Shown one piece after another: positions 3,489 through 44,519 of a stretch of 64,000 nucleotides of DNA. A program made the translations under genes and the position numbers. Numbering within the stretch: the stretch's first letter is position 1; each line of letters starts with the position of its first letter. The notes below the pieces were generated by a model that searched no databases, was not told the DNA's origin, and saw nothing but the letters and a program-made list of their open reading frames with translations. The DNA comes from Pseudooceanicola algae (GTDB lineage Bacteria; Pseudomonadota; Alphaproteobacteria; Rhodobacterales; Rhodobacteraceae): the NCBI RefSeq assembly GCF_003590145.2, contig NZ_CP060436.1:406001-470000 (forward strand), given 5' to 3'.

Positions 3489-3651
3489 GGGGGGCGCTGC
3501 CCCCCGCCGCGAAGGCGGCTCCCCCCGGAGTATTTCCGGCCAGATGAAAGAGCCATGTCCTGAGCCTCGGCTCTTTATCATCTGGCCGGAAATACTCCCG
3601 GGGGAGGGCGGCGGACCGCTTTGCGGTGCGCCGTTCGGGGGCAGGGCCCCC
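3489..3651. repeat. long palindromic intergenic repeat, copy A
   Basis: A core inverted repeat (arms 3522-3554 and 3569-3604) runs CCCCCGGAGTATTTCCGGCC / GGCCGGAAATACTC with CAGATGA/TCATCTG inside and AAGAGCC/GGCTCTT near the loop. It is flanked by the G/C palindrome GGGGGGCGCTGCCCCCC (3489-3505) and a related GGGGGCAGGGCCCCC (3637-3651). The same design recurs near 9.2 and 42.3 kb. It lies between the divergent response regulator and sugar transporter genes and holds no gene. It could form a large cruciform or an RNA terminator on either strand. Confidence 0.85.
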
Positions 3652-9187: not shown

Positions 9188-9277
9188 CCGGCGGGAGTAT
9201 TTCGGGCCAGATGACAGGGGAGCGGCTCTTCATCATCTGGCTGGAAATACTCCGGGGGTGAGGGGGCAGCGCCCCCT
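9188..9277. repeat. long palindromic intergenic repeat, copy B
   Basis: Left arm GCGGGAGTATTTCGGGCCAG plus ATGA (9191 on), right arm TCATCTGGCTGGAAATACTC then CGGGGG (9233 on), then the palindrome AGGGGGCAGCGCCCCCT (9261-9277). Same architecture as the copies at 3.5 and 42.3 kb. It fills most of the 322-bp gap between the lysozyme and glucokinase genes and could terminate the former. The remainder (9278-9424) shows no gene. Confidence 0.85.
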
Positions 9278-10515: not shown

Positions 10516-10590
10516 TGGCAGCCCGTAGGGGAATCGAACCCCTCTTTCCAGGTTGAAAACCTGGCGTCCTAACCGATAGACGAACGGGCC
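10516..10590 (-). tRNA. tRNA-Glu (UUC), downstream copy
   Basis: 75 nt including an encoded CCA. Acceptor stem GGCCCGT/ACGGGCT, anticodon stem CCAGG/CCTGG with loop TTTTCAA giving anticodon UUC, T loop TTCGATT. Identical to the copy at 10708-10782. The 117-bp gap between the copies contains a perfect palindrome TCCAGACC-GG-GGTCTGGA (10626-10643). Confidence 0.97.
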
Positions 10591-10707
10591 ATCTCATGTG
10601 CCTTGCGTTCTACCATCTTCCCGCTTCCAGACCGGGGTCTGGACTGAGCAACATACTGACATCCCGAAGTGTTTCCGAGAGCCTGCCTTGCTGCAGCGCG
10701 GGGAAAA

Positions 10708-10782
10708 TGGCAGCCCGTAGGGGAATCGAACCCCTCTTTCCAGGTTGAAAACCTGGCGTCCTAACCGATAGACGAACGGGCC
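10708..10782 (-). tRNA. tRNA-Glu (UUC), upstream copy
   Basis: 75 nt with encoded CCA, identical base for base to the copy at 10516-10590. The cloverleaf is complete with anticodon UUC. It lies 109 bp after the recJ stop on the same strand, with its own promoter candidate just upstream. Confidence 0.97.
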
Positions 10783-33673: not shown

Positions 33674-33748
33674 TGGAGCGGGCGAAGAGATTCGAACTCT
33701 CGACCCTAACCTTGGCAAGGTTATGCTCTACCCCTGAGCTACGCCCGC
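33674..33748 (-). tRNA. tRNA-Gly (GCC), downstream copy
   Basis: 75 nt with encoded CCA. Acceptor GCGGGCG/CGCCCGC, anticodon loop TTGCCAA (GCC), T loop TTCGAAT. Identical to the copy at 33938-34012. Confidence 0.97.
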
Positions 33749-33764
33749 TCTCTGACGTGGCGCC

Positions 33765-33793
33765 GAAATACGCGGTAGGACGGGGCGGCGCAA
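33765..33793 (-). promoter_or_regulatory. candidate promoter of the downstream tRNA-Gly
   Basis: Minus strand TTGCGC (33793-33788), 17 bp, TATTTC (33770-33765), 16 bp before the tRNA. Confidence 0.45.
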
Positions 33794-33937
33794 GCAGAAA
33801 TTTCGGCCTTTTCGGGCAAATTTTTCGGGGCCGATCATTCTGGTGATCTGCGGGCCCAAGGCCCCTGAAAACGCGAAAAACCCCCGTGCATCGCGCTGTT
33901 GCGCCATGTTCGGAGGATCGCTGATCTTCAGTAAAAT

Positions 33938-34012
33938 TGGAGCGGGCGAAGAGATTCGAACTCTCGACCCTAACCTTGGCAAGGTTATGCTCTACCCCTG
34001 AGCTACGCCCGC
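33938..34012 (-). tRNA. tRNA-Gly (GCC), upstream copy
   Basis: 75 nt with encoded CCA, identical to the copy at 33674-33748; anticodon GCC. The 189 bp between the copies hold a promoter candidate but no gene. Confidence 0.97.
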
Positions 34013-42233: not shown

Positions 42234-42377
42234 GGGGGCGCTGCCCCCAATCGTGCCTGCGGCCCGATCCCCCCGGAGTATTTCCAGCTAGGTGAATAAG
42301 CACGGCGCGTCTCGCTCACCTGGCGCGAAATACTCCGGGGGAATTGAGGCCGCAGGCCTCAAGGGGGCAGCGCCCCT
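42234..42377. repeat. long palindromic intergenic repeat, copy C
   Basis: GGGGGCGCTGCCCCC (42234-42248), then CCCCCCGGAGTATTTCCAG (from 42269) and the opposed GCGAAATACTCCGGGGG (about 42324-42341), GAGGCCGCAGGCCTC, and finally GGGGGCAGCGCCCC. The inner arms are more diverged (CTAGGTGA/TCACCTGG) than in copies A and B. It lies between uvrD and the hairpin array and can terminate uvrD transcription. Confidence 0.82.
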
Positions 42378-42400
42378 GAAATTTACATGTCCTGAAAATG

Positions 42401-42440
42401 AAAAACGGCGGTGCCAGGGAGGAGGAGAGGCACCGCCGTT
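42401..42440 (-). terminator. intrinsic terminator of the hairpin array
   Basis: The last CCUCCUCCC hairpin has a 12-bp stem and runs into TTTTT (42405-42401) on the minus strand. It is the only hairpin of the ten with a T run, so it should be the transcript end. Confidence 0.85.
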
Positions 42441-42474
42441 CGTTTGACGACCGCTCAGGGAGGAGGAGAGAGCG
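42404..42474 (-). ncRNA. array unit 5 (weak + terminating hairpin)
   Basis: Hairpin CGCTC/GAGCG (42452-42474), then the perfect 12-bp stem AACGGCGGTGCC/GGCACCGCCGTT (42404-42440). Confidence 0.75.
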
Positions 42475-42493
42475 ATCGGTCTGTTGCCAGGTT

Positions 42494-42564
42494 CCGGCAG
42501 GGCCAGGGAGGAGGAGAGGCCCTGCCGGTCTTGGCATCACCGCTCAGGGAGGAGGAGAGAGCGG
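42494..42564 (-). ncRNA. array unit 4 (weak + strong hairpin)
   Basis: Hairpin CCGCTC/GAGCGG (42540-42564), then the perfect 11-bp stem CCGGCAGGGCC/GGCCCTGCCGG (42494-42528). Its stems repeat unit 2 exactly. Confidence 0.75.
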
Positions 42565-42605
42565 CGAATTTTTTGCGAAGCGTAACCCTGCTTCGGGGAT
42601 GAGGT

Positions 42606-42673
42606 CCGGTGATGCCAGGGAGGAGGAGAGGCATCACCGGGAAACACGACCGCTCAGGGAGGAGGAGAGAGCG
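42606..42673 (-). ncRNA. array unit 3 (weak + strong hairpin)
   Basis: Hairpin CGCTC/GAGCG (42651-42673), then the perfect 11-bp stem CCGGTGATGCC/GGCATCACCGG (42606-42640). Confidence 0.75.
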
Positions 42674-42692
42674 ACCGATCTTTGGCCAGTGT

Positions 42693-42763
42693 CCGGCAGG
42701 GCCAGGGAGGAGGAGAGGCCCTGCCGGTCTTGGCATCACCGCTCAGGGAGGAGGAGAGAGCGG
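42693..42763 (-). ncRNA. array unit 2 (weak + strong hairpin)
   Basis: Hairpin CCGCTC/GAGCGG (42739-42763) followed on the minus strand by the perfect 11-bp stem CCGGCAGGGCC/GGCCCTGCCGG (42693-42727). Same stems as unit 4, 199 bp away. Confidence 0.75.
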
Positions 42764-42803
42764 CGAATTCTTTTCGAAGCGTAACCCCGCTTCGGGGATA
42801 GGT

Positions 42804-42872
42804 GCGACGATGCCAGGGAGGAGGAGAGGCATCGTCGCTGGTCTCAGAGGGCCCAGGGAGGAGGAGAGGGCC
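42804..42872 (-). ncRNA. array unit 1 (weak + strong hairpin)
   Basis: Hairpin GGCCC/GGGCC (42850-42872), then the 11-bp perfect stem GCGACGATGCC/GGCATCGTCGC (42804-42838). First unit after the DUF1127 stop; its weak stem differs from the GCTC type of the other units. Confidence 0.75.
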
Positions 42873-42890
42873 GCCTGATCTCGGTGTTCT

Positions 42891-43112
42891 TCAGGCCGGT
42901 TGTCCGTAGGCTTGTTGATAGGCCACGGTCCGGATCAGCGAGCGGCGCAACCCAAGGTCGCTAAGCTCGCGGTTATTCATGGACGACAGTTCGTCCAGGC
43001 ACTTGCGATAGGCCGCGTAACGGGCGTAGCGTTCGCCAATCTGGGCGAAGAGGCGCACCAAGAGGGTCTGGCCTTCGTTTGCCTGACCTTGATATCCGGT
43101 TGCCATTGCCAT
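42891..43112 (-). CDS. DUF1127 small protein (CcaF1-like)
   Basis: 73 residues. The C-terminal half RKCLDELSSMNNRELSDLG followed by LRRSLIRTVAY is the DUF1127 signature (W/L-R-EL-x-M-x-DRELxDIG pattern). Members are often small, basic, stress-induced RNA-binding or regulatory proteins; in Rhodobacter sphaeroides the homologue next to CcsR1-4 is CcaF1, reported to bind RNA. GAAGGA sits 8 nt before the ATG at 43112. Its 3' end runs straight into the hairpin array on the same strand, so mRNA and sRNAs probably come from one precursor. Confidence 0.88.
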   Translation of the reverse strand: MAMATGYQGQANEGQTLLVRLFAQIGERYARYAAYRKCLDELSSMNNRELSDLGLRRSLIRTVAYQQAYGQPA

Positions 43113-43424
43113 CGTTTCGATCCTTCGTCTCGCATCTCTGTCTGCGGCGTCTTGACTGTCCGTGCCGATCTCGTTGGCGCTAACTGCCTTGCTGCTGTTG
43201 ACCTCAATTTAGCTATTTGCTGCGTTTGCACAATGGACGCTTGATCAACGCCGCTATGCAGAAAGTGCATAAGAAGCGTTGACCTAAGATTAACGGATTT
43301 CAACTTTAAGATGAAAGGGGCCGTGTCGTCTCGGGGAGGGGCTGCAAATGGCAGGTCAGCACGGCTGCCCTTGCCCATTGCGTCGAAAATGCGCACCTAT
43401 GCAGGCATATCGAAGGAGAAAACC
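43113..43424. promoter_or_regulatory. divergent promoter region between DUF1127 and mrp
   Basis: Relatively AT-rich 312 bp without a gene. It contains the inverted repeat TATGCA-GAAAG-TGCATA (43255-43271) and the palindrome TTGATCAA (43241-43248). If the array resembles the Rhodobacter system, an RpoH-type promoter should lie on the minus strand; I could not identify one with confidence (the best -35-like motifs are TTGTGC near 43227 and GTTGAAA near 43300). Confidence 0.4.
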
Positions 43425-44519
43425 TTGCCTGTTACGCGTGATGACATCCTTAGCGAACTCAAGCGACTTGGCCTGCCGGATGGTGGCGACCTGGTTTCGG
43501 CGGACATGATCCGTGCTCTTGTGGTCGAGGGCACCAGCGTGCGCTTCGTCATCGAGGCTCCGGACCCCGAGACCGCAAGGCGGATGGAATCGATCCGCGC
43601 CGCCGCTGAAAAGCTGGTGTCCGACATGGCGGGTGTCGACAAGGTCAGCGTCGCCCTCACGGCGCATGGCCCTGCGCCGCAGCCGTCACGTGCCCCGACG
43701 GGCAATGCGGAACCCCCCAGCCTGAAGATCGGCGGCCACCCGAAGCCGCAGAATGCCCCGATGAAGCCATCGGGGGTGAAGCGCATTCTTGCGATTGCCT
43801 CCGGCAAGGGCGGGGTGGGCAAATCGACCGTCTCGGCCAATCTCGCGGTGGCCCTGACGCGCGCCGGCAAGAAGGTTGGTCTGCTTGATGCCGATATATA
43901 CGGTCCCTCGCAGCCGCGCATGATGGGGGCGACGAAACGGGTCGCCTCGGCGGATGGCAAGACAATCGACCCGCTGCATCTGCATGGGGTCACCATGATG
44001 TCCATCGGTTTGATGATGGAAGAAGACAAGGCCGTGGTCTGGCGCGGGCCGATGCTGATGGGCGCCTTGCAGCAGATGCTGGGGCAGGTAAACTGGGGCG
44101 AGCTTGACGTGCTGATCGTCGACCTGCCGCCGGGCACTGGCGATGTGCAGCTGACCCTGTGCCAGCGCGCCGAATTGTCGGGCGCCATCATCGTTTCGAC
44201 CCCGCAGGATGTGGCGCTGCTGGATGCGCGCAAGGCCATCGACATGTTCCATACCCTGAAGACCCCGGTCATCGGGCTGATCGAGAACATGTCGGTCTTC
44301 ATCTGCCCTCATTGTGGTGGAGAAAGTCATCCATTCGGTCATGGCGGCGTCGCTGCCGAGGCCGAGAAGATGGGCGTGCCGTTGCTTGGTGCACTGCCGC
44401 TGGATCTGGACACCCGGCTTTCGGGTGATGGCGGGACCCCGGTCGCCCTGGGTGAGGGCAAGCAGGCGCAGGCCTTTGCACAGCTGGCCGAGGGGTTGAT
44501 CCGCGGCGGCATGGTCTGA
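43425..44519 (+). CDS. mrp: Mrp/ApbC-family iron-sulfur carrier ATPase
   Basis: 364 residues from a TTG at 43425, preceded by AAGGAG at 8 nt; an ATG at 43389 is in frame but has no ribosome site. An N-terminal MIP18-like (DUF59) domain is followed by the deviant Walker A SGKGGVGKSTVSANLA, LLDADIYGPSQPRMM, DVLIVDLPPGTGDVQLTL, and the C-terminal CPHC pair (VFICPHCGG) that holds the transferable [4Fe-4S] cluster. It assembles or delivers Fe-S clusters in the cytoplasm. Confidence 0.95.
   Translation: MPVTRDDILSELKRLGLPDGGDLVSADMIRALVVEGTSVRFVIEAPDPETARRMESIRAAAEKLVSDMAGVDKVSVALTAHGPAPQPSRAPTGNAEPPSLKIGGHPKPQNAPMKPSGVKRILAIASGKGGVGKSTVSANLAVALTRAGKKVGLLDADIYGPSQPRMMGATKRVASADGKTIDPLHLHGVTMMSIGLMMEEDKAVVWRGPMLMGALQQMLGQVNWGELDVLIVDLPPGTGDVQLTLCQRAELSGAIIVSTPQDVALLDARKAIDMFHTLKTPVIGLIENMSVFICPHCGGESHPFGHGGVAAEAEKMGVPLLGALPLDLDTRLSGDGGTPVALGEGKQAQAFAQLAEGLIRGGMV

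Follow-up and report, generated by a model that had tools for sequence, protein, structure and literature searches.

The window, by which we mean the whole 64 kb stretch of DNA analysed, contains a DUF1127 gene followed on the same strand by an array of hairpins (Table 1). In the array region, 42401-42872 on the minus strand, there are ten hairpins whose loops are all the same 13 nt. The 13-mer TCTCCTCCTCCCT is confined to the array within the 64 kb, with 10 copies on the minus strand between 42416 and 42867 and 0 on the plus strand. Each copy is held in a stem with arms of 9-15 nt, and the stems of hairpins 1, 4 and 10 contain one internal mismatch each. Stem strength alternates strictly, hairpins 1, 3, 5, 7 and 9 being weak and hairpins 2, 4, 6, 8 and 10 strong. 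Together with the spacings between successive motif hairpins (40, 70, 41, 48, 39, 71, 41, 48 and 41), this alternation resolves the array into five two-hairpin units. A TTTTT run is found directly after hairpin 10 only, and from their sequence the two likely form the terminator. An initial annotation of this DNA had described the ten identical loops, the five units of a weak and a strong stem and the single terminal T run, and all three descriptions were borne out. It had also stated that the stems vary but keep pairing. This was found to be so across loci, as detailed below, but in the window the repetition of stems is partly due to an internal duplication, one copy carrying hairpins 3-5 and the other hairpins 7-9, so that the window alone offers fewer than ten independent stems. 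Two linker hairpins without the motif are predicted between units, which brings the number of predicted hairpins to about twelve, ten of them carrying the motif.

In the genome to which the window belongs (4.09 Mb, four contigs), CCTCCTCCCT was found in 16 copies, of which the array accounts for 10. The six other copies were considered as further loop hairpins and rejected, as their stems do not exceed 4 pairs and they seem to be chance occurrences. Plus-strand open reading frames across the array were set aside, by eye, as translations of the repeats. Besides the array, CCCCGGAGTATTT is present in five copies in the window when one mismatch is allowed, against 0.04 expected from shuffling. 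The copies form two inverted pairs and one single (42271-42340, 3523-3602 and 9245-9257), and one inverted pair is located directly behind the array terminator, between GGGGGC-rich and GCCCCC-rich stretches. Elsewhere in the window, tRNA-Glu(ttc) and tRNA-Gly(gcc) each occur twice as near neighbours (10516-10782 and 33674-34012), and the two members of each pair have the same Rfam score.

Table 1. Features of the array locus and its upstream region, in window coordinates
Feature	Coordinates	Strand	Basis and remarks
Operator-like element (putative)	43246..43269; TGCA-N6-GCAT 43256-43269, overlapping TGCATAGCGGCGTTG 43246-43260	-	like LsrB/VtlR sites
Promoter-like TTGTGC-N16-TAAATT (putative)	43206..43233	-	genus alignment
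DUF1127 gene, 73 aa	42891..43112	-	Pfam PF06568, E=2.8e-9; CcaF1-like by position
Unit 1, hairpins 1 and 2	42799..42882; loops 42855-42867, 42815-42827	-	CcsR1 49.2 bits (cut-off 65.3)
Linker hairpin, units 1/2	42775..42797	-	CCCC-GAAGC-GGGG-TTAC-GCTTC; possible H-type pseudoknot; predicted fold
Unit 2, hairpins 3 and 4	42688..42770; loops 42745-42757, 42704-42716	-	CcsR1 40.0 bits
Unit 3, hairpins 5 and 6	42601..42680; loops 42656-42668, 42617-42629	-	CcsR1 36.0 bits
Linker hairpin, units 3/4	42576..42598	-	same type as 42775..42797; predicted fold
Unit 4, hairpins 7 and 8	42489..42576; loops 42546-42558, 42505-42517	-	CcsR1 40.7 bits
Unit 5, hairpins 9 and 10	42400..42487; loops 42457-42469, 42416-42428	-	CcsR1 51.5 bits; ar14 match
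Internal duplication	42447..42799; copies 42646-42799 and 42447-42600	-	154 nt, 94% identical, shift 199

Judged by its sequence, the locus is a CcsR/ar14 (cuckoo) RNA locus. The Rfam ar14 model (RF02344) matched at 42400-42534 with 60.2 bits, above its cut-off of 58.8, and two further stretches scored under the cut-off at 56.5 and 48.6 bits. With a permissive threshold, the CcsR1 model (RF02791) gave one match per unit, five in total (E 1.2e-11 to 4.5e-7). The initial annotation had named the CcsR/cuckoo family and the DUF1127 neighbour, and it had pointed to a covariance search as a check. Both the family and the neighbour held. In the search all five units align to CcsR1, although none of the scores, 36.0-51.5 bits, reaches the cut-off of 65.3. 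Two CcsR features are present, namely tandem units with two CCUCCUCCC loops each and a DUF1127 gene immediately upstream on the same strand, at the position of ccaF1. The stand-alone three-hairpin form of ar14 was not found: ten motif hairpins, arranged in pairs, lie behind a protein gene, which is why the locus is called ar14-related and not an NfeR1 orthologue. No match to ar15/AbcR (RF02345) above cut-off was found in the same genome, the best reaching 18.1 bits against a cut-off of 40 (E 0.5), and weak ar15 matches were also seen in 8 of 14 control genomes. The cuckoo RNA family, with the CIN1 locus, was reportedly modelled with 2-4 hairpins per RNA by Reinkensmeier and Giegerich in 2015. 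The locus belongs to a known kind of RNA, of which the array is a new, longish example. What may be new is the range of array lengths, the linker element and an LsrB/VtlR-like operator.

Conservation across the family

Stem pairing across loci is well supported. For each of the two hairpin kinds, 55 hairpins were compared, from the window and from 54 pairs chosen by hand among 119 candidates; the loci had been picked by the exact 13-mer, so the invariance of the loop in this set is by construction. In the strong hairpin (11 pairs), 87.1% of the cells were paired compared with 58.9% after shuffling, and 165 cells had changed on both sides compared with 49.8. In the same way, the weak hairpin (6 pairs counted) showed 89.0% of cells paired against 60.3%, and 92 two-sided changes against 30.2. 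The values for pairing, two-sided cells and covariation score were reached by 0 of 500 shuffles for both hairpin kinds, whereas 72 and 133 of 500 reached a less fine measure, the number of pairs with at least one two-sided change.

The pair architecture is visible in other arrays too, where 620 of 928 loops are the same 13-mer as in the window. Where two successive hairpins were 35-46 apart, the second was the stronger one in 395 of 457 pairs (46 weaker, 16 equal); at spacings of 58-90 the order was mostly the opposite, with 213 of 237 weaker, 13 stronger and 11 equal. In 78 of 121 arrays no hairpin was stronger than the last. TTTT followed the last hairpin in 76 of the 121 and was absent in 45, compared with 29 of 791 inner hairpins.

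At least two adjacent CCTCCTCCC motifs were found in 228 of 296 genomes of the family, with the reversed control pattern also matching in a minority of genomes, most of them array-bearing. This figure misses variant loops, as 11 of 20 pattern-negative genomes had ar14 matches at E up to 0.01, none above cut-off, and the loci of five pattern-negative genomes show at least two CTCCTCCC motifs. The loci examined contain 161 arrays with at least two motifs, and for 126 of them a DUF1127 match lies no more than 400 nt upstream, on the same strand. These linked arrays hold from 2 to 26 motifs, with a median of 7 (n=125, duplicate L157 dropped). Ten or more motifs were present in 29 of the 125, exactly ten in 10 and fewer than ten in 96, and ten motifs are therefore not exceptional for a DUF1127-linked array. 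The sizes are exact motif counts, 10 of the 126 arrays may be cut by the end of the locus, and the set of loci, counted among the matches listed, is biased by the search patterns. The largest arrays contain 26 motifs (L028) and 23 motifs (L129, Primorskyibacter flagellatus CGMCC 1.12644). Three-motif units exist beside two-motif units. They make up most of the 26-motif array (L028 387-1557, reversed locus, units of about 140 nt), and they form an array of 14 motifs (L074 7483-7972, units of 110 nt). The 23-motif array (L129 3851-5190, reversed locus) has a period of 118.

In the genus of the window, arrays of 6, 10, 12, 14 or 16 motifs were observed; exceptions are L295 with 3 (probably a contig end), L296 with 5 (a gap) and L306 (two loops read twice), and L312 and L313 are separate two-motif loci. 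With the 154-nt duplication, these sizes suggest that array length changes by whole units. Of the 35 arrays without an upstream DUF1127 match, 18 have two motifs. Ten two-motif loci of this kind have no clear T-run (L071, L110, L112, L114, L115, L116, L118, L124, L137 and L153), and in five of the ten the first hairpin is preceded by TTTCCTGG and followed by CCGGAAAT; L118 and L124 are both in Alloyangia pacifica KcN7-14, beside the DUF1127 array L061. Other loci without a DUF1127 match contain two separate clusters, of three motifs each in L052, L083, L103 (Devosia) and L098, and of three and two motifs in L076; they are perhaps the rhizobial ar14 form, duplicated.

Linker folds are a feature of the long spacers. 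A folding energy below -2 kcal/mol was obtained for 99.6% of the 227 distinct long spacers, whose median z is -1.76 and of which 77% are at z < -1, whereas short and mid spacers have a median z of 0; seven of the 227 contain the motif with at most one mismatch and are overlooked loop hairpins. From the 50 distinct genus spacers, 19 were chosen by eye as one type; most of them read CCCC-GRAGC-nGGGT-nA-GCYYC. Their inner helix had 13 cells changed on both sides against 3.7 after shuffling. Their CCC/GGG helix was paired in 98.2% of cells but is nearly invariant, with 3 further pair types, under the shuffled mean of 4.8, which makes a pseudoknot compatible with the data and not proven. In general, a long spacer is predicted to form a small additional hairpin, which in the genus may be a pseudoknot. 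The linker pattern matched 20 times in the genus and its reversed control 4 times; 14 of the 20 lie in arrays and include the sequences from which the pattern was drawn.

Upstream element and candidate targets

Upstream of the DUF1127 genes, the genus alignment showed a TTATGCA-N5-TGCATAGCnGCnTTG block and then TTGTGCA; in this alignment L295 has no DUF1127 match, and the chosen start cut the block in L298, L107 and L302. A consensus scan of 42300-43450 found no sigma-70 site. Within the block lies TGCA-N6-GCAT, the sequence that PMC10746234 reports for the LsrB site in front of NfeR1. It was found in 112 of 136 upstream regions of array-linked DUF1127 genes, in 2 of 136 shuffles and in 17 of 67 unlinked DUF1127 genes. 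The reverse complement of the window element, CAACGCCGCTATGCA, agrees with the VtlR motif CAATGCAGCCATGCA, as quoted in PMC12595884, at 12 of 15 positions; its three mismatches place the window itself outside the counts that allow up to two. Under that limit, CAATGCAGCCATGCA matched 87 of 136 linked regions, 1 of 136 shuffles and 1 of 67 unlinked genes, and the genus-generalised CAAYGCNGCYATGCA, with at most one mismatch, matched 110 of 136, 1 of 136 and 2 of 67. Without the 11 genus rows, the linked counts were 83 of 125 (CAATGCAGCCATGCA) and 99 of 125 (CAAYGCNGCYATGCA); duplicate genes had been removed, and the rows are related sequences. All 120 of 120 linked matches with up to two mismatches lie on one strand, and in 109 of 111 aligned rows the element is followed by a TTGTG/TTGCG box. 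Near arrays without a DUF1127 match, the VtlR motif was found, at up to two mismatches, in 4 of 32 checkable cases.

These observations suggest that transcription may be under a LysR-type regulator similar to LsrB/VtlR, which would act alongside RpoH sigma factors or in their place. That the element is instead part of an RpoH-type promoter, or the site of another regulator, has a chance only somewhat short of even. The ccaF1-CcsR promoter of Rhodobacter sphaeroides is described as RpoHI/RpoHII-dependent (PMC10253847), and besides the three mismatches of the window copy, the core, GCAT-N3-TG-N3-T according to PMC7486931, is GCAT-N3-GG-N3-T in the window. The fairly frequent occurrence of TGCA-N6-GCAT at unlinked DUF1127 genes points the same way. 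Against this stand its near absence from shuffles, its T-N11-A form, the single strand and the position ahead of the box, a combination that we judge to be more in keeping with a LysR site than with sigma hexamers. Among the literature matches listed, which left subscription papers largely outside and included PMC7486931 and PMC11975290, none was found to tie LsrB/VtlR to CcsR or to a Rhodobacter DUF1127 gene.

The C-rich loop motif is complementary to Shine-Dalgarno (SD) sequences, in agreement with the proposal of the initial annotation that the loops could pair with such regions. The loop-complementary GGGAGGA occurs 3-10 nt ahead of an ATG at 65 places in the same genome, against 11 for the reversed pattern. 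Of the 52 resulting open reading frames of at least 60 aa, 26 match solute-binding-protein families of Pfam (DctP 10, SBP_bac_1 5, TctC 4, Peripla_BP_6 3, NMT1 2, NMT1_3 1 and Peripla_BP_4 1). In the control HGGAGGA, in which the first G is replaced (153 matches, 70 places examined), 2 of 54 such frames were solute-binding (Fisher 2.5e-8). The control places among the matches listed reach up to about 2.9 Mb of contig 1; within the first ~2.9 Mb of this contig, 16 of 37 GGGAGGA genes are solute-binding (Fisher 4e-6), and in the first 673 kb the counts are 5 of 9 GGGAGGA genes and 0 of 22 controls. Nevertheless, a co-evolution test on the SD regions of DctP genes failed. GGGAGG was present at 13 of 30 DctP loci from array genomes and at 10 of 30 from genomes without an ar14 match (p=0.6), best-scoring DctP loci per search only, which suggests a feature general to DctP-type genes. 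It was also present at 6 of 15 DctP loci from pattern-negative genomes with an ar14 match, the pattern-negative genomes being an unclean control given their ar14 matches.

The start region of the DUF1127 gene in the window is without GGAGG. In the 20 nt ahead of the start, GGAGG was found in 0 of 123 linked genes (0 of 141 in a larger set) and in 1 of 68 unlinked ones. Self-avoidance by the DUF1127 mRNA was considered and set aside as suggestive only, GGAGG being almost absent from the unlinked genes too. In the coding sequence, the ratio of observed to expected GGAG is 0.37 in linked genes, 0.61 in unlinked genes and 0.50 in 51 annotated plasmid genes. The parts of the arrays outside the loops are likewise poor in GGAGG, with 12 copies against 61 expected, which is what free loops would require. 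In the start regions of 140 distinct linked genes, GGAGG occurs 0 times, GGAG 3 times and AGGA 19 times. AAAG, which is able to pair with 16S rRNA, is found ahead of 44 of 141 linked genes.

Interpretation and relation to known systems

It is probable that the locus consists of five tandem two-hairpin units, each a trans-acting anti-SD small RNA (sRNA), in the 3' part of the DUF1127 mRNA, and that the number of units sets the dose. One mRNA would carry the five units and a single terminal terminator. One transcript, processing by RNase E with a part for CcaF1, Hfq binding and stress control would be as described for R. sphaeroides, where ccaF1 and CcsR1-4 are co-transcribed from an RpoHI/RpoHII promoter (Figure 1 legend of PMC10253847) and a model of precursor and RNase E processing has been published (PMC10253847, PMC8625941). 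CcaF1 is reported to bind RNA (PMC10253847, PMC8307010) and to promote CcsR maturation (PMC10253847), with which it interferes when over-produced (PMC8307010). Each released unit would show two CCUCCUCCC loops that pair with the SD regions of targets and block translation, as NfeR1 does according to PMC10746234. Loops of one sequence would act redundantly, so that dose follows unit number and would rise and fall by duplication and loss of units, and transcription may be driven by an LsrB/VtlR-like LysR regulator, in addition to RpoH or in its place.

This reading draws on the ar14 match above cut-off, the below-cut-off CcsR1 match to every unit, the covariation, the DUF1127 gene upstream of most arrays, the pair pattern by spacing, the placement of TTTT and the unit-wise array lengths of the genus. 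The excess of solute-binding genes behind GGGAGGA, the lack of an ar15/AbcR match above cut-off and the upstream element also argue for it. Against it count the DctP comparison, the missing TTTT behind more than a third of last hairpins, the three mismatches to the VtlR 15-mer together with the RpoHI/RpoHII promoter of R. sphaeroides, and the CcsR target named there, flhR, which is not a solute-binding protein (PMC8307010).

The repetition of identical sites would also suit protein titration, in which the C-rich loops serve mainly to bind and tie up a protein with affinity for RNA, be it Hfq, the DUF1127 protein or some other, while base pairing with mRNAs plays a minor part; the gene next to the array is similar to that of CcaF1, whose RNA binding and effect on CcsR maturation were mentioned above. 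We regard titration as improbable, since mutation of the three NfeR1 motifs abolished ntrB repression (PMC10746234), the motif is complementary to SD sequences, and most linked arrays hold fewer motifs than the window. The sponge that the initial annotation had offered, beside a dosage effect, as a reading of the multiplicity found no support: nothing in the data tells it apart from simple dosage, and NfeR1, which carries this motif as well, is reported to block translation (PMC10746234). Marginally less credible again is a role mainly in cis, on the stability or 3' end of the DUF1127 mRNA or as feedback on its own start. In 121 of the 126 linked arrays the first motif does follow the DUF1127 stop codon by 16-74 nt, and AGGA ahead of the start is rarer in linked DUF1127 genes (19 of 141) than in unlinked ones (33 of 68), counts that, like those of GGAGG, are not independent because the linked genes are orthologous. 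But the lack of SD complementarity at the DUF1127 start disfavours feedback, and two-motif relatives exist without an upstream DUF1127 match. As for a selfish or random repeat without function, the tandem duplication is evident, but covariation and conservation speak so strongly against it, together with the conserved neighbour, the terminator, the pair pattern and the adjacent motifs in most genomes, that this explanation was dropped as having a negligible chance.

Beyond the preferred reading of trans-acting anti-SD units, a wider proposal is put forward tentatively, and we hold it to be rather doubtful. The DUF1127-linked arrays of the Rhodobacteraceae could be the counterpart of AbcR/NfeR1, in which an LsrB/VtlR-type switch controls one transcript of identical anti-SD sRNAs, tunable by duplication from 2 to 26 loops and released at linker pseudoknots, and thereby dampens many periplasmic solute-binding proteins. 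If the element is an LsrB/VtlR-type operator, Rhodobacteraceae CcsR and rhizobial AbcR/NfeR1 share one control logic. This logic, if true, would join a redox- or nutrient-linked LysR protein, anti-SD sRNAs, nutrient-uptake targets and DUF1127 proteins, and the series of 2 to 26 loops would be evolution's own experiment in sRNA dosage.

Among known systems, AbcR1 and AbcR2 (ar15) resemble the array in the aSD1 motif CUCCUCCC, and their targets include mRNAs of periplasmic ABC-transporter components (PMC8844928); AbcR1 is activated by LsrB/VtlR (PMC10746234, PMC7486931). They differ in that ar15 has no above-cut-off match in the genome of the window. In R. sphaeroides, RS0680a has two hairpins of the CCUCCUCCC kind (PMC3927594). 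The CcsR RNAs of this species, which bind Hfq (PMC8307010), share with the window the same-strand DUF1127 gene upstream, the units with CCUCCUCCC loops and the terminator after the last unit. There are four units in R. sphaeroides and five in the window, and the predicted linker hairpins and the LsrB/VtlR-like site are window features that the available portions of the R. sphaeroides CcsR accounts do not mention. Finally, ar14/NfeR1 of Sinorhizobium meliloti shares the loop motif and the TGCA-N6-GCAT site upstream (PMC10746234). It has three CCUCCUCCC hairpins, and pairing is how it silences both ntrB and mRNAs for periplasmic substrate-binding proteins (PMC10746234, PMC8844928). NfeR1 is described as a single Hfq-independent three-hairpin sRNA with its own promoter, whereas the window holds a pair-based array behind a protein gene.
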